A stretch of 64,000 nucleotides of DNA from Bdellovibrio sp. (GTDB taxonomy: Bacteria; Bdellovibrionota; Bacteriovoracia; Bacteriovoracales; Bacteriovoracaceae). The DNA is taken from positions 62,001 through 126,000 of the forward strand of contig JACPIU010000040.1 in the NCBI GenBank assembly GCA_016187935.1, written 5' to 3'. The notes beneath the pieces are model-generated. The model was not told the origin of the DNA. It saw nothing but the letters and a program-made list of their open reading frames with translations, and did not search any database. Below are positions 17,950 through 34,231 of the stretch, in pieces (the first letter of the stretch is position 1; the number at the start of each line of letters is the position of its first letter). The position numbers were made by a program, and so were the translations under genes.

Positions 17950-17971
17950 CCTCATTTTTTACAAAATGAGG
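17950..17971 (-). terminator. Hairpin over the end of the pel cluster
   Basis: CCTCATTTT (17950-17958) pairs with AAAATGAGG (17963-17971) around a 4-base loop and overlaps the stop codon of the last gene. No T-tract follows on the minus strand, so it may be a weak terminator or a 3'-end stabilising structure. Confidence 0.4.
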
Positions 17972-18863
17972 TTTCAGGATTGTAGAGTGAAGTCTTGCCG
18001 GTCAATTCCCTATCTGCCACCAAGGGGATCACGCCAAGCTTCTGGGCCTGGCAAAAATAGGCATCAATCTTGGAGTTGCCTTGGATATACTCTATGGAAA
18101 AGACATGCTTGCCATGATTTTGGTAGGTTTTAAATTCCCCCACAACCTCCATATTGGGAGCATAATCGTTATCAAACCACTTTTTACCCACATAAAAGGC
18201 ACTTTCTATTCCAATCCCATCAATCGCAGCAAAAAAAGCTTCGGGGGCCTCTAAAAATTGATAAATAGTGGTGGCATTTTGCGTGAATAAAAGAAACGAT
18301 GGCAGGAGACTTACAGCATGTTGTTTAATTTTGGCCACAAAATCCGCCATAATTTGGGCGTTTTTCTTGACCTCTTTGGGATCATCCCAGAAAGCATCAA
18401 CTATATCGAGATAGGCCCCTTGGCATCCTAAGTTAATCATTCGCTCCACATAGGAAGAACCAAACTCAGGTGTGTGAGAAACAAAAATACTCTGCCAAAC
18501 GGGATCGGCATAGTTCACCCTAAAACTCCCCTTCCATACAGCATTTTCATGTTTAATAATTTTTTTACCTAAGGCCTGGTAATAGTATCGATAAGTCCCG
18601 GTCTCCCCTATACTCATGTAACACAAGAGAGTATGTCCTGCGCTTTTAAGTTCTCCCGCCAGGGCCTGAAATTTTTCGGCAGGAAGTTCGAACGGTTCAA
18701 GTACAAAAAGGGTCGGAGGGCCAGAGATAAGCGCCCTGAGGTTCTCTTCCTTTAAAAGTTGCAACTGATAATACCACCGAACAGGAGTGGGATGAGTCTT
18801 CTTACAACCCACCCAGCCGATGACGAACAGGAAAAATAACAATTTAAATTTATGTGTAAACAT
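17952..18863 (-). CDS. PelA hydrolase-like (GH114/GH166-type) lipoprotein
   Basis: A protein of about 303 residues. A signal peptide ends in a lipobox (IGWVGC), so it is probably a membrane-anchored lipoprotein. The body is a TIM-barrel of the GH114/TM1410 type: LLCYMSIGETGTYRYYY, GCQGAYLDIVDAFWDD (likely catalytic acid region), GIGIESAFYVG and VFSIEYIQGN. In Pseudomonas PelA this alpha-1,4-N-acetylgalactosaminidase domain is fused in front of the deacetylase; here it is a separate gene at the far end of the cluster. The ATG at 18863 gives the best signal peptide; it overlaps pelG by 14 bp. It may trim or release Pel polymer. Confidence 0.85.
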   Translation of the reverse strand: MFTHKFKLLFFLFVIGWVGCKKTHPTPVRWYYQLQLLKEENLRALISGPPTLFVLEPFELPAEKFQALAGELKSAGHTLLCYMSIGETGTYRYYYQALGKKIIKHENAVWKGSFRVNYADPVWQSIFVSHTPEFGSSYVERMINLGCQGAYLDIVDAFWDDPKEVKKNAQIMADFVAKIKQHAVSLLPSFLLFTQNATTIYQFLEAPEAFFAAIDGIGIESAFYVGKKWFDNDYAPNMEVVGEFKTYQNHGKHVFSIEYIQGNSKIDAYFCQAQKLGVIPLVADRELTGKTSLYNPETSFCKK

Positions 18864-20238
18864 GTTTCTGGCGCAATGGTTGCCCCATAAATACATATTC
18901 ATGAGTATGTTGAAGATGATAGTTCAATTTGTAATATGAAACACACAGCGTGATAAAAGAACTTAGTGCGTACCCAAAAGCATAATATTTCTTACCGGCA
19001 TACAGAGACATGATACTCAAACTGCTATTCGCGAGAAAAAAGATGGCATAATTGAGCAAAACAGGTTTTTGGGCATTGAAGTAAAGCAAGATAATATTAA
19101 AAATCATAAAGAGTGATTGAAAATATGTTCCCAAAACGCCAAACCGAAAAATAGAAACCATGATGGTAGGGAGTCGCAAGAAGGCCAAGATATCGGCGGC
19201 AAAGAACCAAATGGTGAAAGAGGCCAAGCTTTGCACTTTGATCATGGCATTCAACCCTTGTTTCAAGGCGATCATCATGTCCTTATGGGCCGAGTCCAAC
19301 ATGGACAAAGGACTTTTCTCATCAAGGAGTTTGAAATAGTAAAGATATTTCACATAAAAATTGGTTTCAATCTGGACAACAAAAATGGTGAGGGCCGGTA
19401 GAATAGTTAAATAGGCCAAAAACAACGCCGTATCATATTCGGTATTGGTATACAGAGGGCCGATGATTTGCTGTCCGCAGGAACTGAACCAAAAAATAAA
19501 TTTATCAACCCAAACACCTAAATAATAAAAAAGTCCGGCAAAAGAGAGTTTTTTAAAACGCCGAAAATAATTAAAAATTTCAAAACTACTAAAATCAAAA
19601 GACTCGTATTCATAATAAATGCAAACTGTGAGAATCAAAAAAACCAACAACTGTCCGCAGCTCATGCCACCGATCAGACCTCCTACCCCCCAATAATGCA
19701 GCCCGAACTGACCTGCAATCCCCATGGTCAAGGCCCCGACAATAAAGGCCATGACGATCACGTGAAAATGCTTGGCGGCGCTTAGAAAAATCATCGCCGG
19801 CCAAATTAGCATGGTGAGAGTAACAAAGAAAAAGCTGGTTATTTTAAGTAAAAATGGCACGGGGACAAAGGAAAAAAACAAAACACTTGTGAGAAGGCCC
19901 AAAGTCATCAGGACCACGCAAATTCCATAATAGAGCGGCCGAATGTCATGAAGATCTTTCAAAAAAAGCTTATCTGCCAAATATCGAGTGATGGGCATTT
20001 CAATGGCACCAAAAATAATTAAGGAAAATGCATAAGCATAACTGACGATGGCCTTATAAAGATACTTGTCAGAGTCTGCCAAATATTGAGCCGAAAATGA
20101 ATTAATGTAGGCAAGAGAAAAAATGGTAATGAGCCAGGGCCCACTGGAAATAAAAACCGAATAAATGGCCCCACGCAAATTCCTGAGCAAATCGTGCGAA
20201 CCGAAATAAGACTGTAAGCGGAAACCTATCCCGGCCAT
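18850..20238 (-). CDS. pelG: Pel polysaccharide exporter, PelG family
   Basis: A 462-residue protein with about 12 membrane helices. The N-terminus (MAGIGFRLQSYFGSHDLLRNLRG, then YSVFISSGPWLITIFSLAYIN) is typical of PelG, a MATE/MOP-fold inner-membrane transporter that works with PelD, PelE and PelF to polymerise and move Pel across the membrane. It starts 2 bp after pelF and overlaps the hydrolase gene by 14 bp. Confidence 0.93.
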   Translation of the reverse strand: MAGIGFRLQSYFGSHDLLRNLRGAIYSVFISSGPWLITIFSLAYINSFSAQYLADSDKYLYKAIVSYAYAFSLIIFGAIEMPITRYLADKLFLKDLHDIRPLYYGICVVLMTLGLLTSVLFFSFVPVPFLLKITSFFFVTLTMLIWPAMIFLSAAKHFHVIVMAFIVGALTMGIAGQFGLHYWGVGGLIGGMSCGQLLVFLILTVCIYYEYESFDFSSFEIFNYFRRFKKLSFAGLFYYLGVWVDKFIFWFSSCGQQIIGPLYTNTEYDTALFLAYLTILPALTIFVVQIETNFYVKYLYYFKLLDEKSPLSMLDSAHKDMMIALKQGLNAMIKVQSLASFTIWFFAADILAFLRLPTIMVSIFRFGVLGTYFQSLFMIFNIILLYFNAQKPVLLNYAIFFLANSSLSIMSLYAGKKYYAFGYALSSFITLCVSYYKLNYHLQHTHEYVFMGQPLRQKHVYT

Positions 20239-20240
20239 AC

Positions 20241-21722
20241 TTATATCGCCATGTAGTGATTATACAAATTCATATAGCTCCTAATGTTGTTTTCCTCAGT
20301 ATAGTACTTAAGCACGCGTTGCCGACCATTTTTTCCCCATTGTCGTGCCAAATTCCGATCCGAGAGAATTTTTAAAATTGCCGCACCGATTTGAACGCCA
20401 TCCCCCATTGGGAGAATCATACCAGCGACACCAATGGCCTGATCTTCGAGGTCATGGCCCATCACTAATTCACGGCAAGCACCGACATCCGTAGCGACAA
20501 TAGGGATTTCCATCGCCATAGCTTCAAGCAGAACCAAGGGCTGGCCTTCACTAATGCTGGTTAAAACCAAAACATCAAATTTGGGATAATAGTCATGAAC
20601 ATTGGCCTTGCCAGTGAAGATAACGTTATGGTCCAAGTCCAATAAGTTCACCAGCTTTTTGCATTCTTCAAAATATTCCGGCTCTTCCTCATGGGGCCCA
20701 ACCAGATAGGCCTGGAAATTGGCAAATTTTTCTTTGACCACCAGCAAACCCTTGATAAAAGTTTTAACATCTTTTATTGAAACTATTCGTCCCACCATAC
20801 CGATCGATGGCGGGGTTTCGGAAGATCTTGCTGTGGGGAGCGCGGGTGTGAAGTTTTCAATCGCAATCCCGTTGGGAATGATTTGCATTTTCTTGATTTG
20901 AGCCCCGTACTCGATTTGCCGAATTTGATTACCGCGAAAAAGCCCTGTGATAACATCGGCATGATGGTAGGAAAGTTTGCCAAGGAACAAAAACAACCGC
21001 GTCCACCATGTTTTGAAATAACGTGAGATTTCAGGATGAATTTCTACTGAGATATCGCGGTAAATCCAATCAGAAAGCGAAATCTCAATTTCCCTTTCAT
21101 TGGAATAAATCCCATGCTCCGACAAAAGATAAGGACGCCCGGTTTTAATTTTCGCCACACTGGCAAGTAGTCCTGCATAACCGGTACAGAATGCATGGTA
21201 CACTCGGGCGTGGGGGATCTCAATTGTCAGTATTTTAAAAATCGGAAAATGGGAAAAACGCCAGGTGTAAAAATAATCAATAAAGGATGGACCTGACTGG
21301 CCAGGAAAAAGGCGACGATAGGCCATTTCGAGATATTGCCAGACTTGCCTCGAACGCAATAAATCTTCGGGAGATGGGAAATGTTCATTTTGAAAAATCT
21401 TGATAAAAAGCTCTTCAAATTTATGCATATTGTGAGTGGAAAGGGCCTGATGGAAATCAGTTATCAGAGCGTGGTCAATGTTAAAATTCAAATCCGTGGG
21501 ACCTTCGGGGATAAAATACTCATATAAGTAGATTTCGCGGAAATATTTGATATTGGCAGGCAGAGGATACTTAAATTCCATGCCATTCTTTTTTGTGGCA
21601 CCGATATAAATTACGTCATAACTAATCTGCGGCGTATTTTTTATCAATTGATAAACACAAGCAGATACCCCTCCCGTCACGTAGGGATATGTTCCTTCCA
21701 AGATTAAGCAGACATCACTCAT
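20241..21722 (-). CDS. pelF: Pel glycosyltransferase, PelF family (GT4)
   Basis: A 493-residue cytoplasmic glycosyltransferase. The N-terminal CLILEGTYPYVTGGVSACVYQLI is the PelF signature. The nucleotide-sugar site includes GMVGRIVSIKDVKTFIKG and the E-x7-E motif in SEGQPLVLLEAMAMEIPIVATD. PelF polymerises GalNAc/GlcNAc from UDP-sugars at the PelDEFG membrane complex. It overlaps the HEAT-repeat gene by 4 bp and is followed by pelG after 2 bp. Confidence 0.94.
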   Translation of the reverse strand: MSDVCLILEGTYPYVTGGVSACVYQLIKNTPQISYDVIYIGATKKNGMEFKYPLPANIKYFREIYLYEYFIPEGPTDLNFNIDHALITDFHQALSTHNMHKFEELFIKIFQNEHFPSPEDLLRSRQVWQYLEMAYRRLFPGQSGPSFIDYFYTWRFSHFPIFKILTIEIPHARVYHAFCTGYAGLLASVAKIKTGRPYLLSEHGIYSNEREIEISLSDWIYRDISVEIHPEISRYFKTWWTRLFLFLGKLSYHHADVITGLFRGNQIRQIEYGAQIKKMQIIPNGIAIENFTPALPTARSSETPPSIGMVGRIVSIKDVKTFIKGLLVVKEKFANFQAYLVGPHEEEPEYFEECKKLVNLLDLDHNVIFTGKANVHDYYPKFDVLVLTSISEGQPLVLLEAMAMEIPIVATDVGACRELVMGHDLEDQAIGVAGMILPMGDGVQIGAAILKILSDRNLARQWGKNGRQRVLKYYTEENNIRSYMNLYNHYMAI

Positions 21723-23674
21723 GAGGCCACCAGCGCTTTTTCCAATAAGTTTTTAAAATTAATTCTAACACTCAATGGATCATGGGCCATCGTCCAATAT
21801 TCGCGCAAAGCACGCTGCTTCAAGTCCTGATTCTTGCTAAGGGCCATCTCTTCTAGAATCACAAGGGCGGTGTCGAAAGGTAAATCGCTGAAATCGACTT
21901 GGATAATGTAATCCAACAGCGCGGTATTCATGGGAATCATCTTTTTCTGGACACAGGAAAGAATTCCTTGCAAGAGTGCGGGGCCAAACTGCTGTTTCAA
22001 AAGTACTTGAACAATGCTGGCGACTTCATGTTCATGAAAGGAAAAGAAAGGCCGCAAATTCGGATGGGAAGGGCCAACAACAGGGACCATGATAATATGC
22101 TTCACCAGTTCTTCGGAAAGACCGCGAGAAAATGATTTTATAAATGCCTCCTGTTCCCAACAATATAAAATCGAACGGGCAAGTTGCGGATCTTTTTGAA
22201 TCACATAGGACAAACTCTTCACGATCTCCTTGATCAAGGCCGGTTCTCGCTCTGCCACCAACATCCCATCAATTTTTTGCACGATTTTCTCATTGGCGAT
22301 GTAGCGTAAGGCTTCAATGCAAAGGAGCTTAAACTCAAGGTCTGGTCCTGTCAGGTGCTTTTCTATGTGGCCTAACAGTGTGGGTGAAATGCAAAAATTC
22401 GCAGGAAAAGACTTTAAGGCGTGCAGAATGATATGGTGGCGTTCAGGATCGGTGGGGGTGCCCAGATCAAGAAATTCATCGATAGTTTTTGGTCGATCAA
22501 CATGGGGATGGGCCAAAAGTGCCTTAAAGGCCATGATTGAAAGTGGATGTTTGCAATCAAAGGCCACCCGTTTGAATTGCAAAGCAATGGCAGGATCATC
22601 ATGCTCTGCTAAAATCTGCATAGCGGAAATGGCCAAAAATGGAAAGTTAAGGTCGAAGGCCCACTTAAAAAGGATCGACTTTAAAATCGGGTGAGGTGTG
22701 ACCTGGAGAAGATTTATAAACTTCAAGGACTGTTTTTCTGAGATATTCCGAGAATATTTTCTCAACACCAAGGCGCGATACTCTCTTGGGAAACTCACCA
22801 ATGTGTTAAAAATTAAAGTGAGTATGTCCTGCCGCTCTTCCAGTAAATATTGTTCAACTAAAAATTCGATAACCTGGGAAGAGGGTTGAAATGAAAAGGT
22901 CTGAACAAAAGCATCCAAAATGGCCTTTTTGACTTGGATGTTTTGGGATAGAATGAAATATTTCTTTGGATAGTATAAAGAAAAATGCTTCCATAGCCGA
23001 ACCAGGCCGACCAAAGCGCAGATTTGAATTTCCACGCTCTCATGATTGACAAATTTTACCAGGGTAAGACCATTAAAGATATTGCCAACAGTGCCAATAC
23101 CTTTAATCGCCAGGGCGACTCTCTTGCAATCGGAAGAATTGATTTCTCTATAAAAGGCCCGAAGGGCACGAGGATCTTCCAAATGGATCAAGAGTTCCAA
23201 GCATAACTCGACGTTATTGTTTTTATCCACTTGATCAATAATAACAGATACCAGAGGCAGCATCCGATAGCGTGTTACCGCCTTAAGAAAGTAAGAGATT
23301 TTCTTGGAGTGAATTTTTGGATAGGCCATGCGCATACATTCATATTTAAGGGAGGTGGGGACATCCGGAGCATCTAAAAAACTTTGGATATAATTTGCCG
23401 CTTTGGATTTTACTTTTCGATTCTCATGATCTTGTAATTCAAAGGCGCGGGCCAGGCATAAACTCAAAATCTCTAAATTAAACTTGGAGGACCAAAAGGC
23501 GAAGAGATTAATCAAAAGGGTAAGAAGTTCAACATTATTTTTGGTCAAGATGAGGCGAATAATTTCCTTACACTCCATGGGAACATCAACAGTTTGCAAA
23601 TATTTCAGGGCCTCAGATCTTTCATGCCAATTGGCAGATTGAACTTTTCTTAAGGCCTGTTCAAATTGTGTCAT
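21719..23674 (-). CDS. HEAT-repeat protein within the Pel cluster
   Basis: A 651-residue soluble protein, all alpha-helical by eye, made of about 14 HEAT-like repeats (for example LHALKSFPANFCISPTLLGHIEKHL and ALRYIANEKIVQKIDGMLV). It has no signal peptide or membrane helix, so it is probably cytoplasmic. Classical pelABCDEFG operons have no such gene. Its overlaps with pelE (14 bp) and pelF (4 bp) show it belongs to the operon, and it may be a scaffold for the PelD-E-F complex. It has no catalytic motif. Confidence 0.8.
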   Translation of the reverse strand: MTQFEQALRKVQSANWHERSEALKYLQTVDVPMECKEIIRLILTKNNVELLTLLINLFAFWSSKFNLEILSLCLARAFELQDHENRKVKSKAANYIQSFLDAPDVPTSLKYECMRMAYPKIHSKKISYFLKAVTRYRMLPLVSVIIDQVDKNNNVELCLELLIHLEDPRALRAFYREINSSDCKRVALAIKGIGTVGNIFNGLTLVKFVNHESVEIQICALVGLVRLWKHFSLYYPKKYFILSQNIQVKKAILDAFVQTFSFQPSSQVIEFLVEQYLLEERQDILTLIFNTLVSFPREYRALVLRKYSRNISEKQSLKFINLLQVTPHPILKSILFKWAFDLNFPFLAISAMQILAEHDDPAIALQFKRVAFDCKHPLSIMAFKALLAHPHVDRPKTIDEFLDLGTPTDPERHHIILHALKSFPANFCISPTLLGHIEKHLTGPDLEFKLLCIEALRYIANEKIVQKIDGMLVAEREPALIKEIVKSLSYVIQKDPQLARSILYCWEQEAFIKSFSRGLSEELVKHIIMVPVVGPSHPNLRPFFSFHEHEVASIVQVLLKQQFGPALLQGILSCVQKKMIPMNTALLDYIIQVDFSDLPFDTALVILEEMALSKNQDLKQRALREYWTMAHDPLSVRINFKNLLEKALVAS

Positions 23675-24710
23675 AGCTCAAGCTGCTCCAAAAATATGCC
23701 GTTTGCCTGATTTTTTCAAACTTGGGATTTTTGTCCAAAATTTGCTTGCATATTCTTTTTAACAAATCATACTCCCTAATATGGAATAGGGCCTCAGCGT
23801 AGTAAAAGGCGAGTTTACACCATTCCTCTCCCGACATGGGAAGCGTTAATATTTGAGGGCCTAGCTCGGCACATTTCTTGTATTCCTTAAGATGGATAAA
23901 AATTTCCAGGATGCGCACATACAAGGCCTTCTGATCGGGAAAGATCTGAAGTGAAAAAGTGAGACTGTCAAAGGCCTTAGTTAAAAAGCTTTTGGATAAT
24001 ATCTCGTCAAAAATCCCCGAACGTGCAGCGGAGATATAGGCACGGGCCATTGAATTGTGCACATGATAATCAGTCGGATGCATTTGAAGCTGGGCGTGCA
24101 TGGCCTCCAATTCATCCATGATCTTTTTCTCCATTCCTTCTAAAATATTTTTTGCCATATAACGGACTTCATAAATCTCATCATGTAAAGCATTCTGAAG
24201 CGGGATAATAAAATCCTTGGGATTTGTTCTGCCTATCTCCTGAATGCTTTTAATTTTCCGCGCTTTATCCTCTCCCGCTATGACATCAATGACAGAATCA
24301 ACATGCACAAATTTTAAATAGCATTCTTCCTCATGGCCTTTGCTTCCACAACTTTCGCTCTCATTAATGATCTTTTTCTCCACCATATATCTTCTATAAT
24401 CTTGTTCCCCATGAGGGAGGGCGTACAAGTCTTTACCCTTCTTGGTATAAAGAGGACGGGCAATATTCAAAATTAAAAAGAACAAAAGTCCACCGATTTG
24501 CCCAATGATCGGAAAAAATAAATCAAAAGAAAAAATCGCCACTCGCAGCGAATGGGAATAGGGCAAGCGTTGCAGGATCATGAAAAGAAAAGGCGCGAAG
24601 GCCAGATGAAAGAAGAGCAATTTCATGTCACTAAACATCATGACAAGAACAATCTCAAGTATAAGCTTGCCCAGGAAATACAATATCAAAACAGGCCAAA
24701 GGTGCTTCAT
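23661..24710 (-). CDS. pelE: Pel inner-membrane protein, PelE-like
   Basis: A 349-residue protein with membrane helices in the first ~90 residues (LWPVLILYFLGKLILEIVLV; LLFFHLAFAPFLFMIL; FDLFFPIIGQIGGLLFFLIL) and a C-terminal helical TPR-like domain (about 200-340). This matches PelE, which links PelD to PelF. Identification rests on architecture and position between pelD and pelF. It overlaps pelD by 4 bp and the HEAT gene by 14 bp. Confidence 0.82.
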   Translation of the reverse strand: MKHLWPVLILYFLGKLILEIVLVMMFSDMKLLFFHLAFAPFLFMILQRLPYSHSLRVAIFSFDLFFPIIGQIGGLLFFLILNIARPLYTKKGKDLYALPHGEQDYRRYMVEKKIINESESCGSKGHEEECYLKFVHVDSVIDVIAGEDKARKIKSIQEIGRTNPKDFIIPLQNALHDEIYEVRYMAKNILEGMEKKIMDELEAMHAQLQMHPTDYHVHNSMARAYISAARSGIFDEILSKSFLTKAFDSLTFSLQIFPDQKALYVRILEIFIHLKEYKKCAELGPQILTLPMSGEEWCKLAFYYAEALFHIREYDLLKRICKQILDKNPKFEKIRQTAYFWSSLSYDTI

Positions 24711-26074
24711 TTCAAGGCCCTCGCCTCAACCGCCATGCCTCTTATGAGATCAAAAGAGCTTTGCATCTCGGATGTAAAACTTGTAACGCCCACTTTTATT
24801 TTTGTCCAAGTATCAGCTGGAAAATGCTCCTGTATTTCTTGTAATTTTCCATAGGCCACGTCTTCATCAGCGATCGGCATGAGAATATAAAGATGATCTA
24901 AAGTGGGCCCCTCCGCTAAACAGTCCATTTTTCTCACACGATTCTTAGCGACTTCTATCAAACCAACCAGAACGATTTCCCGTTGATCCGATGGCAAAGC
25001 GCTGATATCTATTCTGGCAATGGAAAGAGGCAATCGGTAATTTCTGGATCGATCGAATTCTTCCTCCAAACGATCGCAAAAATACTGCCACTTGTAGATG
25101 TCGTAATCCTTATTGACGATATTGAGTTTCTCTATATGTTGAAAATGCAGTGCTTTTTCCAAAGATTCAGAGGCCCATTTGACGTAGATTTCAAATAGCT
25201 TAAAATTAAATGGCACATATTTTAAAAAAGGCAATTCATAAACAAGCACCATCCCTCGCACGACACCTCTGATCATGATTGGTGCCCCCATAAGAATTTG
25301 CCCGTTCAGAGAATTGAAATCTGTTTTAGACCAGATGTCATTCGGTGCGAGACACTGCTTCTCCGACATTATTTTGGCAATCTGTGGATTCTGCTCATGC
25401 GAAAAATTAATTTCGTTTGGCAAATAATCCCCTATTCCTTGAATCAAGTGAAAGACCTCATCATTAATTTCACGCGAAAAATAGATTCCATACTTGCTGG
25501 CCGAAAGATGTTTACTCAAAATCGACAGCAAACCATCAAAGATTGTTTCCATATCAAAAGCATTTAATTTCTTGGAGTCATTATATAAGATTGAGAATGT
25601 GTCAATTTTCGAAAGTAGCTTGGCCTTCAATTCCTCGCTGTTTTTCAAATTGTTTTCAAATTCATTAGTCATGAGATGAAGGACTTTCTCTTTTTGATTG
25701 AGCGTCTCACGCAAGTTGGCCAGCTTGACCTTCCCCATAGTTCTGAGTTCACCGATAAAAATTGCCAGAACACTAAATAACGATGCCGTCATGACGGTAC
25801 TCAGATCAAAAATGGTTTCAATTGCTTCAAAATCCGCCTGCAAGTATAGCAAGGAAAAAAAGAGGATATTAGCGGCCACGATGGCGATTGCCGCCTCAGC
25901 TATTCCATAAAAAGAAGCAAAGATCAGCGCTAAAATATAGTAAGGATTAGGATTAGGGCCTTTAAAGGCCAAATTCTCCGGAAGCAAAACAAAGGCCGCG
26001 AGCAAAATACCGGCATAAAAGGAAATGAGAATAACCATGAAACGAACTTGAGGATTTACAAAAAGCTTTTTCAT
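24707..26074 (-). CDS. pelD: Cyclic-di-GMP receptor PelD
   Basis: A 455-residue protein: four N-terminal membrane helices (to about residue 110), a coiled-coil linker, a GAF domain (about 155-300) and a C-terminal degenerate GGDEF domain. The c-di-GMP inhibitory-site motif RxxD is kept as RKMD (381-384), while the GGDEF active-site position reads PTLDH (390-394), so it should bind but not make c-di-GMP. In Pseudomonas this binding switches on Pel polymerisation. It overlaps the receiver gene and pelE by 4 bp each. Confidence 0.92.
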   Translation of the reverse strand: MKKLFVNPQVRFMVILISFYAGILLAAFVLLPENLAFKGPNPNPYYILALIFASFYGIAEAAIAIVAANILFFSLLYLQADFEAIETIFDLSTVMTASLFSVLAIFIGELRTMGKVKLANLRETLNQKEKVLHLMTNEFENNLKNSEELKAKLLSKIDTFSILYNDSKKLNAFDMETIFDGLLSILSKHLSASKYGIYFSREINDEVFHLIQGIGDYLPNEINFSHEQNPQIAKIMSEKQCLAPNDIWSKTDFNSLNGQILMGAPIMIRGVVRGMVLVYELPFLKYVPFNFKLFEIYVKWASESLEKALHFQHIEKLNIVNKDYDIYKWQYFCDRLEEEFDRSRNYRLPLSIARIDISALPSDQREIVLVGLIEVAKNRVRKMDCLAEGPTLDHLYILMPIADEDVAYGKLQEIQEHFPADTWTKIKVGVTSFTSEMQSSFDLIRGMAVEARALK

Positions 26075-26439
26075 ATCGCAGTTAATTCCTTGATTTTTGA
26101 CAGCAGTTCATTGGGCAGGATAGGTTTCCTAAGATAGGTCAAATTGAGTTCTTGTACTTGTTTCAGTTCATCTTCATCTAAAGTTTTGTAAGAAATGAGA
26201 AGTATCTTGATCTCTCGGTTCATATCCGTCTGCCGGATTTTTCGAGAAAGATCCAGGCCATTGGTGTTTCCCATGAGATAATCGCTGATCACCATAAGAT
26301 ATTTCGTCGCTTGGATTTTTTCCAGGGCCAAATCAGGGTTACTCTCGGCTTCCACTTCAATATCATGAAATCTAAAAAGAGAACTTAAAAGCAAGAGAAA
26401 ATCTTGGCTATCATCGATCAGCAGAATTTTTTTCTTCAT
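26071..26439 (-). CDS. Stand-alone CheY-like receiver domain in the Pel cluster
   Basis: A 122-residue receiver domain only. Acidic residues (IDDS), the phospho-acceptor Asp (ISDYLMGN), Ser/Thr (LLISYK) and Lys (YLRKPI) are all kept, so it should be phosphorylated. There is no output domain and no kinase gene nearby. GGAGAG lies upstream. It overlaps both pelB and pelD by 4 bp, which suggests it signals to the Pel membrane complex, perhaps through PelD. Standard pel operons lack this gene. Confidence 0.9.
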   Translation of the reverse strand: MKKKILLIDDSQDFLLLLSSLFRFHDIEVEAESNPDLALEKIQATKYLMVISDYLMGNTNGLDLSRKIRQTDMNREIKILLISYKTLDEDELKQVQELNLTYLRKPILPNELLSKIKELTAI

Positions 26440-29219
26440 AAATCAGCTCTCCTATTTGGCATAATATCCAACAAAATCATGGCGGAAAATTGTTCACCTT
26501 TATAATTTTGAGGCCCTTCTAAAGAATATTCCATGTGGGCCCTGAAACCGAGTCCATTTCCTTCTGGCCAAGCATACTCGGCCCAGGAACTCCAAGAATC
26601 CGCGAATCCCAAATCACGCCTGGGATCAGCGCCCACCCGTGAACCGAGCTTGATCTCTTGTTCCTGGTTATGCCCAAATGGGAGTTTAAGCTCCACTGCC
26701 AAAAAATAATATAAAGAATCATTTAGATAGATACTGCGTAACAATTCGCTCGCTGATGGCATTTTGGCAAAAGACAAACCTGGTCCTATGGATATCTGCG
26801 CCAGCGAGGACCAGTTAAGCAAATGAAAAAGGATGGTCAAATCGGCCTTACTCTGCGTTCCGGTATCACCAGCATAGTCCAGACTCTGCCATTCGGCACC
26901 TATTCTCTGATCGTACACAACCTGATTCCATTTTCTTTCCATCTCGGAGTAGAGTGAAAGGCCACTTGAGTAAGCACGCGGTGCTTGCCACTGGGCCACG
27001 GAAAAAAATTCCGGCCGGGTCACCCATGCCGAAAGGTTGATATAATGTTTATTGTCCAAGATCGGTCGCAGGGATAAAAAGAGCGGAGTTCCTTCTTTCT
27101 TCAAACGCAAATCTTCGCCAATTTTGAATTCACTCTCAAATTCATATTCCCTCACGAGAAAATTTCGTTTATACATGAGATAAGCATGGGTGAGGTCGCC
27201 GGAATTAATCCCGCTGTGCCCACGATCTATGATACCTGCAATTTTTTTCCCGTCTCCTAACCCCTTACTGAGAGTGATCTTTTCCCGATACAAATCACCA
27301 TCCACCACCTGCTGTCCCTGGGCCTCTACTCTTAATCGAACACTTCTTTTGTCCCTGTTTTCTTGAAAGCGAATGATGTAATCGCGGCGCAGCTCATCCA
27401 CTGGCGCAATTTTCTCAAGCAGAAGTATTTGCTCTTTGGCCTCTGCAAATGCGTTATTATCCAACAGGAAATAAATATACTCTTGTCTGAGTTCTCTTTG
27501 ATGATTTTGTGTCTGCTCAAAATGTTTTCGGTAATACTCTCGGCCTCGACTAAAATCATCTTGCCTTGCATAGCAATGGGCCAAGATTAGATAGAACTCG
27601 GGAACTTCCCTTCGCTCAAGTTCAAGGCGCTTGCAGAAATTTTGATATCGCTCTTCCTGCTGGGAATAAAAAAGCGCCTCTTCCTCCATAACAAAGATAT
27701 AAGATTCACGTTGATTAAAGGGAATGAGATCAATACTCTCCACCACCTTGATATATTCTTTGCGAGAAAAATATATTTCGGCCGATAATGCATGTACTTC
27801 CTGATCGGGAATGGTATTTTGAATCAGATTGTAGGCCTTGTCATAATTTCTTTTTTGAAGGTATAATCTCATGGCCCTTTTACGCGCCTCTTGATTGTTG
27901 GGATTAATATTTAACAGCTCCAAAGCACGGGCCAAGGCCTGATCCCTTTCACCCAGTTCTTCATGCAATCGGCTGATATTGGCATTGGCCTCTTCAGCAT
28001 CGATTGTTTTTGATGAAGTTTTCTTTTTAAAATTCACTTGCGTGAGGGGTGAATTTTGGGCGTAAAGTTCGCTCCACTGTAAATCCAGGGAAGCCTTGGG
28101 CGCGCGTTTTAAAACCTTGTACCAAATTTCCAAGGCCTTGCGCTTTTCTCCCAGTTCCTCATAAAGGCGTGCTAGTTCTGTGGCAAGAATGAGATCATTG
28201 GGATATTGCTGTATGAGTTCTTGGTAGACTCTAAGAGCATCGCTCTTATACCCCATATTATAATAAAACCTGGCGACACTATGGCGATGGACCTGGGCCT
28301 TTTCTAGGACAGGTAAAATGGCATGGGCCCTCTCAAACTCCTTCAAGTTATAGAGAACTTCCACGTGAGTAAAAGTATATTCCAGCTGATCGGGGTATCT
28401 GATTCTGATGACCTGATAGAGCTGATCCATACGGCCATACTCATGATGAATAAAAAGGAGAGACAGAACATGTTCGAGATAAACCCGGTGCTTGGAAGAG
28501 AGGCCCTGCCATTTTAACCGCTCAAAAAAATCCTCCCATCTTATTTCTTCACCCGCAATAATTCGAGTGTATTGGAGAATGGCCTCTTCCCACTCTCCCT
28601 CCAGTTCCAAAGACTCGGCATAATAGGCCCGCTTTTCGGCATCGAAATTAGTTTGCGAGAGCAGACGTTCGAGGGCGAGGCGAACCTTTTTCACCTGACC
28701 ATGGCCTAAAAAAAAGTTAAGAGCGGCGTTCATGATTCTACCATCTTTCGAGTCAAGCAATCGTTGATAGACAACTTCCGCTTCCTCGATTTTGCTCATC
28801 CAACGCAATCCTTCGGCAACTTCCAGCAACAGCTCTTCTTGTTTTTCCAAAGAAAGCAGTTCTGCCCGATCTCGCATACTGAGCAAACGCAGATAGTTCT
28901 GATTTGACCAAGCATAGAGGGTTTCCAAATCCTGACGAAAGCGCAGATTCTTTGGCCTGAGCTTCACCAGTTTCTTTTGAATTTCGATGGGTGCGGCAAG
29001 ATCGCCATTCAAAAGGTAATACTGTTTAAGTTTTTTTAAGGCCTCTAAATTGGAATGATCGCTCCCATTCGCCTCGGTCAGATATTTTAAGGATTCGTCA
29101 TATTGAAAACTTTCAAACAGCGCTTTGCCCATGGTTAAATTACTGGGCAGGCCCGCAATCAAGAGGGATAATGAGCACACAATAAAAAGAAAAATATAGA
29201 TTGGTCGATAGAGCACCAT
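26436..29219 (-). CDS. pelB: PelB-like TPR and outer-membrane beta-barrel protein
   Basis: A 927-residue protein. It has an N-terminal signal/anchor (YIFLFIVCSLSLLIAGLPS), a long TPR superhelix (about residues 35-600) and a C-terminal barrel (about 640-927) with alternating strands such as ITLSKGLGDGKKIAGI and AYLMYKRNFLVREYEFE. This is the PelB design: TPRs in the periplasm guide the polymer and the deacetylase, and the barrel exports Pel. It is shorter than Pseudomonas PelB (about 1190). It follows the deacetylase gene by 34 bp and overlaps the receiver gene by 4 bp. PelC, the usual lipoprotein partner, was not found. Confidence 0.85.
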   Translation of the reverse strand: MVLYRPIYIFLFIVCSLSLLIAGLPSNLTMGKALFESFQYDESLKYLTEANGSDHSNLEALKKLKQYYLLNGDLAAPIEIQKKLVKLRPKNLRFRQDLETLYAWSNQNYLRLLSMRDRAELLSLEKQEELLLEVAEGLRWMSKIEEAEVVYQRLLDSKDGRIMNAALNFFLGHGQVKKVRLALERLLSQTNFDAEKRAYYAESLELEGEWEEAILQYTRIIAGEEIRWEDFFERLKWQGLSSKHRVYLEHVLSLLFIHHEYGRMDQLYQVIRIRYPDQLEYTFTHVEVLYNLKEFERAHAILPVLEKAQVHRHSVARFYYNMGYKSDALRVYQELIQQYPNDLILATELARLYEELGEKRKALEIWYKVLKRAPKASLDLQWSELYAQNSPLTQVNFKKKTSSKTIDAEEANANISRLHEELGERDQALARALELLNINPNNQEARKRAMRLYLQKRNYDKAYNLIQNTIPDQEVHALSAEIYFSRKEYIKVVESIDLIPFNQRESYIFVMEEEALFYSQQEERYQNFCKRLELERREVPEFYLILAHCYARQDDFSRGREYYRKHFEQTQNHQRELRQEYIYFLLDNNAFAEAKEQILLLEKIAPVDELRRDYIIRFQENRDKRSVRLRVEAQGQQVVDGDLYREKITLSKGLGDGKKIAGIIDRGHSGINSGDLTHAYLMYKRNFLVREYEFESEFKIGEDLRLKKEGTPLFLSLRPILDNKHYINLSAWVTRPEFFSVAQWQAPRAYSSGLSLYSEMERKWNQVVYDQRIGAEWQSLDYAGDTGTQSKADLTILFHLLNWSSLAQISIGPGLSFAKMPSASELLRSIYLNDSLYYFLAVELKLPFGHNQEQEIKLGSRVGADPRRDLGFADSWSSWAEYAWPEGNGLGFRAHMEYSLEGPQNYKGEQFSAMILLDIMPNRRADL

Positions 29220-29253
29220 GCTAAATAATTATACACGAAGAAAGGTTGTAAAC

Positions 29254-31236
29254 TCATTGTGCCGGAACTATTTTTGCTTCGAGAATTTGCCCAGATTCCC
29301 CTTCTAAACGGGGAATCATATTATTCTCCACTTGAGTGGTGAATAAGGCCTTAGGTTTTCCGACACACCATTCCACGTAGGGCCCAACGCTGGCATGCTT
29401 GGTCAGCACCAGTTTACTGATCGGGCCCGGGCCGGTGATCACATAGAGTGAACCATTAATGATGCGATGGCCGATAATATTCTTCGACTTTTGGTAGTCG
29501 GGATAAACCCCAGCATGGTCGAACCGAAAATTTTGAAAACTACCTTGCTTTGAAATCTCGAAGGTATCGGGCCCTGTTTCACGGATAGTCACGGAATCAA
29601 AGTCTCTTACCAATCGAATATAGCTTTCAATCAACACCGGGTTTAAGTCGCTGCTCAAAGCATACTGGTAAACTTCGTCCAGGGCCTTGAGTGACAAATC
29701 GAATTCACCTGAATAAAAGTGATAATAGATATTCACAGGTTTAAGACGCCTGGGAATTTCTGTTCGTTTAAAAGTTTCGATGACTCGCTTATAACCGTCG
29801 TAAGGCCCCTGCCAGGAATTGGTATAGATATTTTCATTACTACTGGCCGCATAGACTTGCGTATAGGGTCCAACTCGGCGGTACAGGGGGGCCACGTGAG
29901 AGACGGAGTCAAATACCTGATCAAAACGGGAATCTCCTCCATTAACATTTAAGATGCCTTTTTTCTCCAACAGCGCCAGTGCTTCCATGGGCGGACGGCA
30001 AGATCCACTCCAAAAAAATACACCAGGGGTCTGGCCATGCAGAAACTTTTCCCCGATCAAGGTTAGAGATTGAAGCGTCTCTCTTTCGTAGATCAGTTGT
30101 TTATCTTTGGGTTGGTAGGCCAAAATAGGACCTTTGTGTTTTTTCTCTTTTAATTCGTTCGCTAAATAATTTTCCTTTTCAAACTCGGGAGGGTTCTGGG
30201 CCCAACTTAAAGGATGAAAAAAAGTATGTGAAGCAGCAAAGACATAGGGAAGGTCAAACATTGCCTGAGCAACACGATCTGAATTTGAATTGCCATAATA
30301 ATCTTTATCAATTTCCGCTCCAATCAGAGAAGCGGTTGTGGGAATTTTATATTTTTTAATGATCTTCTCAACAATCACCTGACCGCTTAAGGACTTCCGA
30401 TCTGTATTGGAAATGTTGATAAAACCATCCCCATCAATATGCACAAACAAGAGGCGTTTACCACACAAAGTAGTGGGATCAGGAACGGGGAAAATTTTCG
30501 GCAAAACAATTTCCACTAGTTTAAAAGGATCAATCTTCCATTTGGTTTGCCCGGTGTACCTATTTTCTTCTATCTCTTGACCGTTCAAAACCAGTGCTCC
30601 GCGGGAACTTACCGCCACTGCCGGATATTCATTTTTATTGCGACGATCTTTAAAGGATAACCATATTTCAAACGGCGCAATCACTTTGAGCAAGGGCATG
30701 TTATAGGGCCTCACCTCTCCTTTCCATTCATAGCTGCTATGAGGTGAGAAGGCGGCCTTCTGCAAAAGAATGGGGTTGTCGATAAAGCTGCCATCATAAG
30801 AAAATCCCAACGGATTTAAGGCCAGATTGACAACCGAAGGCGCAACCAAAAGGCCAGTCTTATCAAAAGTGAAACCTAAATGCCCAAAGACCATCCATTT
30901 CACGCCCCTTTTTTGCGCCTTTTGTAAAAAACGGGCGAAGTCCTGCGGTGCAATCATGCTCTCATCTTCAAACCAGGTTACGATAAAGGCGGCCCGTTCG
31001 AGAATCTCCGAGCGAAGCAATTCAGAGGGCAGACCCTGGGCCACATCGTAAAAGCGTAAATAATAACCAGCATGATTGAAAACAATTTCCAATTTGCGGT
31101 GGATATTCGAGAGGGTGTATTCAGGAATGGGATACTCGCTACTGTCATACAAGGCCAGCCCAAGACGTTTCACCGGGACTTCTCCCCAAACCTGCCATGA
31201 AAGAAGCGAGAACAAGAGCACGAGAACTCTACTCAC
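29254..31236 (-). CDS. pelA: PelA-type deacetylase module (hydrolase domain absent)
   Basis: A protein of about 660 residues, exported (VSRVLVLLFSLLSWQVWG signal). The middle has a polysaccharide-deacetylase site: HIDGDGF (Asp near 268-270) and SHTFFH (His near 337 and 341), the metal ligands of CE-type Pel deacetylases. The N-terminal ~250 residues form a Rossmann-like or reductase-like domain, as in PelA, and the C-terminal part is beta-rich. It partly de-N-acetylates Pel in the periplasm. The glycosidase domain that begins Pseudomonas PelA is a separate gene at 17952. GTG at 31236 is preferred over farther starts inside rluA because GGGAG lies 7 bp upstream; it overlaps the pseudouridine synthase gene by 8 bp. 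Confidence 0.88.
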   Translation of the reverse strand: MSRVLVLLFSLLSWQVWGEVPVKRLGLALYDSSEYPIPEYTLSNIHRKLEIVFNHAGYYLRFYDVAQGLPSELLRSEILERAAFIVTWFEDESMIAPQDFARFLQKAQKRGVKWMVFGHLGFTFDKTGLLVAPSVVNLALNPLGFSYDGSFIDNPILLQKAAFSPHSSYEWKGEVRPYNMPLLKVIAPFEIWLSFKDRRNKNEYPAVAVSSRGALVLNGQEIEENRYTGQTKWKIDPFKLVEIVLPKIFPVPDPTTLCGKRLLFVHIDGDGFINISNTDRKSLSGQVIVEKIIKKYKIPTTASLIGAEIDKDYYGNSNSDRVAQAMFDLPYVFAASHTFFHPLSWAQNPPEFEKENYLANELKEKKHKGPILAYQPKDKQLIYERETLQSLTLIGEKFLHGQTPGVFFWSGSCRPPMEALALLEKKGILNVNGGDSRFDQVFDSVSHVAPLYRRVGPYTQVYAASSNENIYTNSWQGPYDGYKRVIETFKRTEIPRRLKPVNIYYHFYSGEFDLSLKALDEVYQYALSSDLNPVLIESYIRLVRDFDSVTIRETGPDTFEISKQGSFQNFRFDHAGVYPDYQKSKNIIGHRIINGSLYVITGPGPISKLVLTKHASVGPYVEWCVGKPKALFTTQVENNMIPRLEGESGQILEAKIVPAQ

Positions 31237-31909
31237 GCACCTTCTCCCATTGCGGACCTGGACCAGTGAACACGGAAGGAACATGCCATTTGCTTGAGAG
31301 TTGAGAGGACAATTCGAGTTTGGTGGCAAGCAGAGCAATGCTTTCTTCATCATACTTTAAACTTGAGCCATATAAGTTATCACCGACAATGGGAATGTTA
31401 TGTTTCATCATTTCAAATCGCAATTGATGTGGACGACCAGTACGTGGGCCTAATTCTAGCAACATCAAAGTGCCCCACTTAGTTTCTCTCTCTTCGAGCA
31501 ATTTGGCGAGAGTGAAAGATTCTTTTCCGTGGGGCGCCTCAAAAGTACGCCTTTTCCCTCGAACCAACTTGGAAAACCACTCATCTTCTTTCCCAAGCAC
31601 CAGTCCTGGTGGAGTTTTGTCGGACTCCCGAAGGCCAAGCGCATGATAGGTTTTTTGAATGGCATGGGACTCGAAGGCCGAGCAAAATTCGCTATGGGCC
31701 TGAGGGTCCAGGGCAAAAAGCATAGGGCCTGCCACTTCAAAATCCAGGCGATGAATGGGATAAACTTTGCTCCCCAAATGGATTTCTAATTCACGGCCTA
31801 GAACGCGACGGGGATCATTTTGATCGCGTGCCGGAACACTCAAGGTGCATGGAGGTTTTTGTACTACAATGACATATGAATTTTGAAAGAGAATTTGCGG
31901 CGTCATCAT
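31229..31909 (-). CDS. RluA-family pseudouridine synthase
   Basis: A protein of about 226 residues. The RluA core is present: an early QKPPCTLSVP segment, the catalytic Asp in HRLDFEVAG and the RTGRPHQLRFE motif. The residues after HRLD (FEVAG instead of the usual xxTSG) are unusual, but the Asp is kept. It isomerises uridine in rRNA or tRNA; the target is unknown. The ATG at 31909 shares TGATG with the tonB-like stop (a GTG one codon earlier is possible). It sits oddly between B12 uptake and Pel genes and overlaps both neighbours. Confidence 0.88.
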   Translation of the reverse strand: MMTPQILFQNSYVIVVQKPPCTLSVPARDQNDPRRVLGRELEIHLGSKVYPIHRLDFEVAGPMLFALDPQAHSEFCSAFESHAIQKTYHALGLRESDKTPPGLVLGKEDEWFSKLVRGKRRTFEAPHGKESFTLAKLLEERETKWGTLMLLELGPRTGRPHQLRFEMMKHNIPIVGDNLYGSSLKYDEESIALLATKLELSSQLSSKWHVPSVFTGPGPQWEKVRE

Positions 31910-32409
31910 CACAAATCGTCCAGTTTAAAGCGCACACTAAAATCCCGCACCCCGGGGTTTGCCCCTTCCAAATTTTTGGCGGCCCGCACGGCTTCACCAT
32001 CAAGACGCATATAACCACTACTCTTCAATACAATCACCTCTTCCACCACACCGATGCGATTGACGGCAACTCGCAAATCCACCACGCCTTCTTCTCCCCT
32101 CTGACGAGAAATTTCTGGATAGAGAATCGGCAAATGGAGATCGCCCTTCTCTTGCTTCATGGAAAAGGCCGCTTCGCTCTGGGCCGGCACAGAGACTGGT
32201 GAGGATTTTTTGAATGTGCCCTGGGACTGCGGTTTTATTTTATTGACCGTCACCGGGGAGGATATTTTAACATTCAAAAATCGCGTGGTGTCTCCCATGT
32301 TCGAGGCGATCTCATCTTGCCCCCCAAATAAATGAATAGAAGTAACTATGACACTGCCATGGAGCAGGCCGGAGAGGATTAAAAAGAAAATATATTTACT
32401 AAAAATCAT
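31909..32409 (-). CDS. TonB-like energy transducer
   Basis: A 166-residue protein with one N-terminal membrane helix (YIFFLILSGLLHGSVIVTSI), a linker with Lys, Ser and Pro, and a C-terminal TonB domain (about 95-166: YPEISRQRGEEGVVDLRVAVN, then GEAVRAAKNLEGA). It couples proton-motive force to outer-membrane receptors, here most likely the BtuB-type receptor whose stop codon it overlaps by 11 bp. The linker is short. No exbB/exbD is present in the window. ATG at 32409 was chosen because upstream in-frame starts lie deep in the receptor gene. Confidence 0.88.
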   Translation of the reverse strand: MIFSKYIFFLILSGLLHGSVIVTSIHLFGGQDEIASNMGDTTRFLNVKISSPVTVNKIKPQSQGTFKKSSPVSVPAQSEAAFSMKQEKGDLHLPILYPEISRQRGEEGVVDLRVAVNRIGVVEEVIVLKSSGYMRLDGEAVRAAKNLEGANPGVRDFSVRFKLDDL

Positions 32410-34231
32410 ACGCCAAACCAACAAAGTAGGACCGTCCTGCCGTCCCAAGTCCGTGGACTTGTTCATACTGTTTGTCCAAAACATTGTCGACACGCAAGTC
32501 GGCCTTCAGGTTCTTTTTTACACTATAGGCGGTATAAAAATGCATTAAGAAATAGGATGGCATAGATATCCTGGTGAAATCAGTTGCATGAATATCCTCT
32601 CGCCTCCCCACAAAATTGCCACTTAAACGACTGGACCATTGATCCCGCTGGTAGGTGACCTGGCCATGGACCTCATGGGTCGGTCGGCGCAAGGCCCGTT
32701 GCCTTGCCTGGTCATAACTCTGAGTGTAGCTATAGCTCATTTCTCCACTTACATCGCCATCGACCGGACTGCGAAACGACAGTTCACCACCTTTGGCACG
32801 CAGATCACCTTGATTGGAATAACGAAAAGTCACAAAATCAAAATCGATCAAATCCTCTACCGTGGTGTTAAAAAGTTGCGCCTCCACTTCCCAAGCATTC
32901 CAGACCAAGACACTTTTCAGCTGGATGGTTCTGGCCCTCTCGGGTCCCAAAGCAGTGCTGCCGAAGGCGCTATAGAGTTGGTACAAAGTAGGGGCCTTGA
33001 AAGCGGAAGACCAGCTCGCACTCACGCTGACAGGCCAATGCTCGAAAGTATAACTGGGAACGACGGAATAACTTTGAAAATCACCAAAAACTTCATGCTG
33101 ATCATTGCGTCCACCCAGTAAAAATTGAAACTGCTCCCATTTGTGATCCAGGCTGAGTAAAAAGGCCTGAGTGCTCACTGATCGCTCAGGCAAAATGCCC
33201 TCGATTTCCATGGACTCTCGCGCCACCTCAACTCCGCTGGTGAATTTGCTATCCTCTCCTACCAAACTGACATTTTGCAGCGCCACTTTTCCAGTCTTTC
33301 CCTCATAATGCTCAAACAGAACGGTGTCATTGTCCGAATCCTTGGCATCATTGGCAATCTTGACATGGGAAGCGGCCTTCATTTGCAGTTGCGGGGACAA
33401 CCATCGGCTTATGTTTTTGTCCATCTCAAAAAAATAAGATCGGTTCTCCTGGCGAAGTGAATAGTTGAGGTCATCTTGGCCCGCGCCTCCACCTTGGTCG
33501 AGTTCGGTTTTGCTCTTTTCCCATTTCCCACCCGCAGTCAGATGAGCAAGGCCTTCGGGGCGACCTTCGATTTTGACCTGAGCGGCTTGGCGCCAAAAAG
33601 CATCATCCTCTTGATTGCCCGGATATTCAGAGCTGGCAGCAGAAAATCCCCCGCTATAATAATGTTCCCCGGCGAGGTTTAAGGAAAAAGTTTGCCACAA
33701 TGGCCCTCGCGTTTCACCCTGGAGTCCGTAGGTCTTGAAACTTCCTCCGTCTCCCCTAACGCTCGATTGCCACTCTTTTATTTTGGATTTGGTCCAAACT
33801 TTGATGACGCCACCTAAAGCGTCGCTCCCGTAATGGATACTATCTGGGCCTTTGACAATTTCAATGCGATCCACATTGAGCAGGGAGAGATGGGAAAAAT
33901 CATAAGAGCGTCCAGGTGACGAAGGATCGTTCATGGGCACACCATCAATTAAGACCAAAATATGTTCGGATTTAAGGCCGTGCAAAAAAAGTGATGTTTG
34001 ACCTCCAAGTGGTCCACTACGCACCACATGAATTCCGGCCTCTTCACTCAACAGTTGGTGTAAAAAATTGTATCCCTTACTCTTGATTTCCTCTGAAGTG
34101 ATAGTGCGGTCTGCTCGCACCTTGTTCATCATCTGCTCAATTGAGGGCCGCTCGCCATGAACGACAATAGTTTCAGACTGGGATTGGGTGGTAAAAATAA
34201 GAAAAAAAAATAGGACAAGATATCGCAACAT
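32399..34231 (-). CDS. btuB: TonB-dependent receptor, BtuB-type (cobalamin uptake)
   Basis: A 610-residue outer-membrane protein with a signal peptide (LRYLVLFFFLIFTTQSQS), a TonB box (SETIVVHGE), a plug domain (about 30-150, with LIDGVPMNDPSS and RIEIVKGPDSIHYGSDALGGVIKV) and a 22-strand-type barrel ending in Phe (YFVGLAYDF). The length and plug resemble BtuB, the vitamin B12 receptor. The cobalamin riboswitch just upstream strongly supports cobalamin or a related corrinoid as substrate. The tonB-like gene follows directly. Confidence 0.93.
   Translation of the reverse strand: MLRYLVLFFFLIFTTQSQSETIVVHGERPSIEQMMNKVRADRTITSEEIKSKGYNFLHQLLSEEAGIHVVRSGPLGGQTSLFLHGLKSEHILVLIDGVPMNDPSSPGRSYDFSHLSLLNVDRIEIVKGPDSIHYGSDALGGVIKVWTKSKIKEWQSSVRGDGGSFKTYGLQGETRGPLWQTFSLNLAGEHYYSGGFSAASSEYPGNQEDDAFWRQAAQVKIEGRPEGLAHLTAGGKWEKSKTELDQGGGAGQDDLNYSLRQENRSYFFEMDKNISRWLSPQLQMKAASHVKIANDAKDSDNDTVLFEHYEGKTGKVALQNVSLVGEDSKFTSGVEVARESMEIEGILPERSVSTQAFLLSLDHKWEQFQFLLGGRNDQHEVFGDFQSYSVVPSYTFEHWPVSVSASWSSAFKAPTLYQLYSAFGSTALGPERARTIQLKSVLVWNAWEVEAQLFNTTVEDLIDFDFVTFRYSNQGDLRAKGGELSFRSPVDGDVSGEMSYSYTQSYDQARQRALRRPTHEVHGQVTYQRDQWSSRLSGNFVGRREDIHATDFTRISMPSYFLMHFYTAYSVKKNLKADLRVDNVLDKQYEQVHGLGTAGRSYFVGLAYDF

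Follow-up and report, generated by a model that had tools for sequence, protein, structure and literature searches.

A nine-gene cluster in the window (the whole 64,000-nucleotide stretch of DNA analysed here) is probably an operon that makes a Pel-type exopolysaccharide in a Bacteriovoracia bacterium, and its modification enzymes are unfused. The operon lies on the minus strand, running from position 31236 to 17952, and encodes, in order, the deacetylase PelADA, PelB, a CheY-like receiver, PelD, PelE, a HEAT-repeat protein, PelF, PelG and a hydrolase (GH) lipoprotein. The spacings between successive genes are 34, -4, -4, -4, -14, -4, 2 and -14 bases and, because they overlap or abut, the nine genes look like a single transcript that begins with the deacetylase gene and ends with that of the hydrolase. 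The machine is neither broken nor brand-new; it is a known one, in a variant that is specific to this lineage and conserved within it. A preliminary description had already placed a Pel cluster here, with a gene of its own for the deacetylase at one end and for the hydrolase at the other, and both are indeed found at those places; the receiver and the HEAT-repeat protein, two conserved extra components, were absent from that description.

The window belongs to contig C32 of a 4.4 Mb genome that is 99% complete (G000). Among named relatives, Bdellovibrionales bacterium GWA2_49_15 comes closest, with a 74% identical PelADA, and other relatives are Bacteriovoracaceae and Halobacteriovorax. Going by these names, the host would belong to the Bacteriovoracia branch of Bdellovibrionota. 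Directly upstream of pelADA, on the same strand, lies a block encoding an RluA-type pseudouridine synthase, a TonB-like protein and a TonB-dependent receptor (31229-34231); it overlaps the pelADA start and is kept in the sister genome G002 (L019, L032).

Two synthase genes place the cluster among Pel systems, as both score far above curated cut-offs. The GT4 glycosyltransferase PelF (20241-21722) reaches 467 bits against NF038011, 367 bits above the equivalog cut-off of 100, and the inner-membrane transporter PelG (18850-20238) matches PF16933 over its full length with 394 bits. We considered that the cluster might be Pel-like and make a different alpha-linked amino-sugar polymer, for which its hydrolase and deacetylase would be specialised. 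Such a product would fit a PelF that is only ~38% identical to proteobacterial PelF, the absence of galE from the operon and the divergence of PelD, PelE and PelB; it is nevertheless unlikely in view of the PelF score and of the CE21 deacetylase and galactosaminidase-type GH that accompany PelF, both from families with Pel-active members. We retain Pel as the favoured product.

PelD (24707-26074) combines membrane helices, a GAF domain and a degenerate GGDEF domain. PelD and PelE are divergent in sequence. The PelD profile A8 matches GGDEF/GAF and PelD structures (PelD 4euv, E 2e-4). The RxxD motif of PelD, R381-D384, is kept in 9/11 sequences and is predicted to be a c-di-GMP I-site. PelE (23661-24710) is a PelE-like protein with membrane helices and a helical-repeat domain, recognised by its position between pelD and pelF and by a lineage profile that also scores canonical PelE of other phyla.

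The two additional components lie within this half of the operon. The stand-alone receiver (26071-26439; PF00072, 4e-16) retains the phospho-acceptor D53, and its place between pelB and pelD is kept across genomes. The HEAT-repeat protein (21719-23674; 651 residues) sits between pelE and pelF; 13/16 of its homologues match HEAT_2 (best 8e-45), its AF2 model is an all-helical alpha-solenoid (pLDDT 88), and no signal peptide was seen in it. Homologues also occur in Auribacter (L044), in bacterium AUK210 (L051) and in L060. The conservation of both proteins inside the synthase half suggests that they may belong to the PelDEFG complex as subunits or regulate it.

The pelADA gene (29254-31236) starts with a GTG at 31236, preceded by a good ribosome-binding site, GGGAGAAGG, and stops at 29254; its reading frame stays open to 31353. 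The product is a predicted secreted CE21-type Pel deacetylase with an alpha/beta and a beta-rich domain, and its residues 208-638 align to residues 383-807 of the solved thermotolerans PelA (9cgy; phmmer, E 7e-56). PelADA residues H305, D307, D309, H376, H380, E507 and H545 correspond to H526, D528, D530, H600, H604, E723 and H761, listed as catalytic in Pseudomonas aeruginosa PelA (PMC12022489), and all seven are invariant in alignment A1, which includes two full-length PelA. Judged by these residues, PelADA is of the CE21 type, with the HxDxD layout and not the D262/D263/R458 layout of Bacillus cereus; it matches no Pfam family at E 0.1, including DUF2194, the Gram-positive PelADA type. The entire GH166 domain is absent from PelADA: ahead of the alpha/beta domain there is nothing but a signal peptide.

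The terminal gene (17952-18863) overlaps pelG, starts with an ATG at 18863 and stops at 17952, in a frame open to 18902. Its product is a predicted GH191-type endo-galactosaminidase lipoprotein. It scores 76 bits on Pfam GH114 and 112 bits on TIGR01370, under the curated cut-off of 181, whereas the hydrolase domain of fused PelA (GH166) scores only 32 bits on TIGR01370. Among solved structures, TM1410 and Env-GH191 match best, with PDB profile scores of 192 and 159 bits, compared to 80 for PelA. In a tree of 66 GH domains, in which the TM1410 and Env-GH191 references are partial sequences taken from alignments, the Bacteriovoracia GHs fall together with these references on one side of a branch with SH-aLRT 100, and the GH166 domains form another group (99). 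A constraint uniting the Bacteriovoracia GHs with GH166 was rejected (AU p 8.7e-5). By family placement, the terminal hydrolase belongs with TM1410 and Env-GH191 (GH191), to which it is closer than to GH166 or GH114, and is not the missing GH166 domain of PelA. The description of this gene as GH114-type holds for Pfam and no longer for CAZy, in which GH191, defined by TM1410 and Env-GH191, now stands apart from GH114 (PMC12054363).

Residues D166 and E233 (316-residue reading-frame numbering) align with the catalytic pair of TM1410, are invariant in 14 homologues and are predicted to be the Asp nucleophile and the Glu acid/base. The lipobox cysteine is likewise invariant in the 14 homologues, in agreement with the earlier view that the hydrolase is a lipoprotein; the lipobox of the window's protein has an unusual W at -3. 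In E. coli, the Lol rule directs lipoproteins with a residue other than D after this cysteine to the outer membrane, a rule that may differ in Bdellovibrionota. The following residue in the GH homologues is K, T, S, A or V and never D, which suggests an outer-membrane location. We infer that the enzyme would hydrolyse an alpha-1,4-GalN/GalNAc polymer. In this family, activity has been demonstrated for Env-GH191 only, which cuts Pel and prefers its deacetylated stretches; TM1410 was inactive on oligomers of fungal galactosaminogalactan (PMC12054363), so that belonging to GH191 is no guarantee that an enzyme cleaves Pel.

The preliminary description had interpreted the two genes as a PelA split in two, a reading under which an ancestral fused PelA would have been cut into two genes and its hydrolase half moved to the operon end. 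Each PelA activity is indeed present once, on separate genes of one operon, and the comparison with PelA domains that had been proposed aligns the deacetylase with the CE21 part of solved PelA; the hydrolase, in contrast, groups with GH191 and not with PelA's GH166. Neither a second PelA-type protein nor a further GH of this type was found in the 99% complete genome, and with PelADA and the GH both single-copy there, no full-length pelA is hidden elsewhere, one of the two findings that would have overturned the description. Fission is nonetheless very improbable, as it conflicts with the TIGR01370 scores, with the GH191 placement and with the position of the unfused deacetylases, which lie outside the fused-PelA clade. 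Because the hydrolase groups with GH191 and the unfused deacetylases fall outside that clade, the window's two genes did not arise as the halves of one ancestral PelA.

This position emerges from a deacetylase tree built on Pel loci drawn from 84,980 species, in which 46 GH166-bearing PelA were analysed. The 46 form one clade (98), interrupted by two unfused members from a Legionellales and a Verrucomicrobiota bacterium. The remaining unfused CE21 deacetylases (Bdellovibrionota, KSB1, Auribacterota, Omnitrophota, Elusimicrobiota, Cyanobacteriota and others) constitute a grade or sister group outside it. The topology points to probably one GH166-CE21 fusion, outside the Bacteriovoracia lineage, and two later losses. 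The root is a DUF2194 protein on an end branch of 9.3, which is unreliable and makes the rooting insecure for calling the unfused state ancestral. Several unfused deacetylases adjoin a separate GH of their own, in the order GH-deacetylase or deacetylase-GH, and some of these GHs are nearer to GH166.

The survey also recovered other arrangements. A Legionellales pel cluster that is otherwise canonical, with PelC present, encodes a PelA without a GH166 domain (L088:981-3050), an independent hydrolase loss. The PelA of Granulosicoccaceae is extended at its N-terminus by a PelC-like domain (L101:8399-11944), which in L101 matches solved PelC 5t11 (E 7e-13); the PelC-PelA fusion occurs also in L087, L097, L100, L104, L107 and L109, with a separate pelC kept in the same cluster. 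Beside a Campylobacterales pel cluster with fused PelA, two tandem small GH-like putative lipoproteins are encoded on the opposite strand (L091:2425-4097).

The survey of related genomes called for at the outset revealed the order PelADA-PelB-receiver-PelD-PelE-HEAT-PelF-PelG-GH in about ten genomes of the family: G000, G007, G018, G032, G046, G110, G114, G115, G116 and G002, with the receiver not separated by the ORF caller in G002 and the cluster cut by contig ends in G032 and a few others. Since this order recurs in independent genera, the arrangement is far beyond chance. At thresholds of E < 1e-40 for GH191 and E < 1e-100 for PelF, GH191 is present in 17/18 PelF-positive and 0/111 PelF-negative genomes of the family (Fisher 2.5e-20, computed ignoring shared ancestry). 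PelF and the GH are on different contigs in G040 and G150.

These counts bear on whether the GH lipoprotein serves predation, digesting the Pel-containing biofilm of prey, and is a mere neighbour of the Pel genes. The lineage includes predatory bacteria, and surface lipoproteins could act outwards. Env-GH191 also acts on isolated Pel (PMC12054363). We regard a predatory role as quite improbable, because the GH is absent from 111/111 PelF-negative relatives while accompanying PelF in nearly all the others, and its gene overlaps pelG in the window.

A role within the Pel machine agrees with the situation in two Halobacteriovorax genomes (G009 and G054; L020/L022 versus L145/L146), in which PelADA and the GH are encoded as a divergent pair at a site well away from that genome's pelB-receiver-pelD-pelE-HEAT-pelF-pelG cluster. 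That these two genes stay together apart from the other pel genes argues that their products work as a pair though unfused. An orphan GH-PelADA pair was ruled out, as PelF is found elsewhere in the same genomes.

PelB (26436-29219) has almost no sequence match to canonical PelB; a phmmer search against the PDB returned only designed TPRs, and Foldseek mostly TPR proteins. Its AF2 model (pLDDT 79, pTM 0.41, nine sequences) comprises an N-terminal membrane helix, a helical-repeat TPR solenoid extending to residue 623 and a 16-strand outer-membrane barrel. VIA-align scored the barrel at Z 24.8 with PgaA, 23.8 with PelB of the PelBC complex (9h80; 321 residues, rmsd 6.8) and 22.6 with BcsC. The model has short helices after strands 7 and 11 (between 7/8 and 11/12), at the places that Plug-I and Plug-O take in P. 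aeruginosa PelB (PMC12141448).

No PelC had been recognised initially, and neither profile A6 nor single PelC queries found one in the operon or anywhere in the 99% complete genome, which covers a pelC placed away from the operon, although a strongly diverged PelC could have escaped the profile. As controls, A6, which itself includes the G095 sequence as a row, scored 173 bits in that genome, a member of the same phylum, and Paraburkholderia PelC alone, a held-out query, found the G095 PelC gene with 35 bits. There was no convincing PelC match in 8/9 other genomes searched; a PelC-profile match in G007 (E 0.05) was too weak to be accepted. PelC is present just before the receiver in G095 and G314, which belong to another family of the phylum (L031:5452-5967 and L156:746-1255), and since it is retained there, the window's family has likely lost it. 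The exporters PgaA and BcsC operate without a PelC-like ring (PMC12141448).

Gene identities, family placement, catalytic residues, lipobox, gene order and co-occurrence were established at the level of sequences and models, and from them we infer the identity of the polymer, the enzyme activities, their localisation and every regulatory step. PelF would polymerise the chain, and PelG, PelD and PelE would pass it across the inner membrane, with c-di-GMP at the PelD RxxD site switching synthesis and transport on. Periplasmic PelADA would partly deacetylate the chain during its passage along the PelB TPR scaffold, and the 16-strand barrel would export it without a PelC ring. The lipid-anchored GH191 hydrolase, probably at the outer membrane, would cut deacetylated stretches and thereby control the length of the chains, or allow cells and free polymer to be released. 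The HEAT-repeat protein and the receiver would probably feed into the synthase complex from the cytoplasm, as scaffold and phospho-signal inputs.

We tentatively raise the possibility of a second class of diderm Pel machine, with an unfused CE21 deacetylase, a free hydrolase from any of several galactosaminidase families, a HEAT and receiver core and, in this family, PelC-less export, which would be the state before the single GH166 fusion in the ancestor of the well-studied systems. In P. aeruginosa one protein carries both PelA activities; with its separate lipoprotein hydrolase, the present system makes it possible to ask directly whether the two have to be tethered. The need for PelC has been described as puzzling in P. 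aeruginosa (PMC12141448), and the lack of a detectable PelC offers a natural test of whether export needs it. The HEAT-repeat protein and the receiver are two conserved, uncharacterised candidate subunits, and the lineage supplies GH191 candidates for cutting Pel biofilms.

Our search of the open-licence literature found nothing specific on Pel in Bdellovibrio or Bacteriovorax and no account of the present arrangement in Bdellovibrionota, and an earlier mention elsewhere is possible. Full-length PelA has been described as typical of Gram-negatives (PMC12022489), separate PelADA and PelAH genes have been published for Gram-positives (PMC7112168), and rearranged pelA and pelB have been described in other bacteria (PMC7112194). 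The window's operon shares with P. aeruginosa pelABCDEFG the PelB transmembrane helix, TPRs and 16-strand barrel, the PelD RxxD motif, PelE, PelF, PelG and a CE21 deacetylase; it differs in its PelA without GH166, its lack of PelC, its separate GH191 lipoprotein and its extra receiver and HEAT genes. B. cereus ATCC 10987 (pelDEADAFG and pelAH) likewise has a stand-alone deacetylase and a separate, cluster-linked hydrolase gene, but its deacetylase has the D262/D263, R458 layout and it lacks PelB (PMC7112168, PMC13254593), whereas the window combines the HxDxD layout with an outer-membrane exporter and a hydrolase at the operon's end. With Env-GH191 and TM1410 (PDB 9ep5, 9eux; PMC12054363) the terminal GH shares a TIM-barrel galactosaminidase family and the conserved Asp/Glu pair; unlike them, it is a lipoprotein of a Pel operon, with low sequence identity to them and a predicted activity. 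The fusobacterial cluster of a Cetobacterium plasmid (NZ_CP092520, L018) is also diderm, with a TM1410-type GH separate from the deacetylase, but there the deacetylase is annotated DUF2194 and the GH precedes pelD. The plasmid cluster of Paraburkholderia graminis (L017) resembles the window in having a separate endo-galactosaminidase gene directly after pelG; in that cluster, however, the extra GH is added to a full-length PelA and groups with GH166 in the tree.
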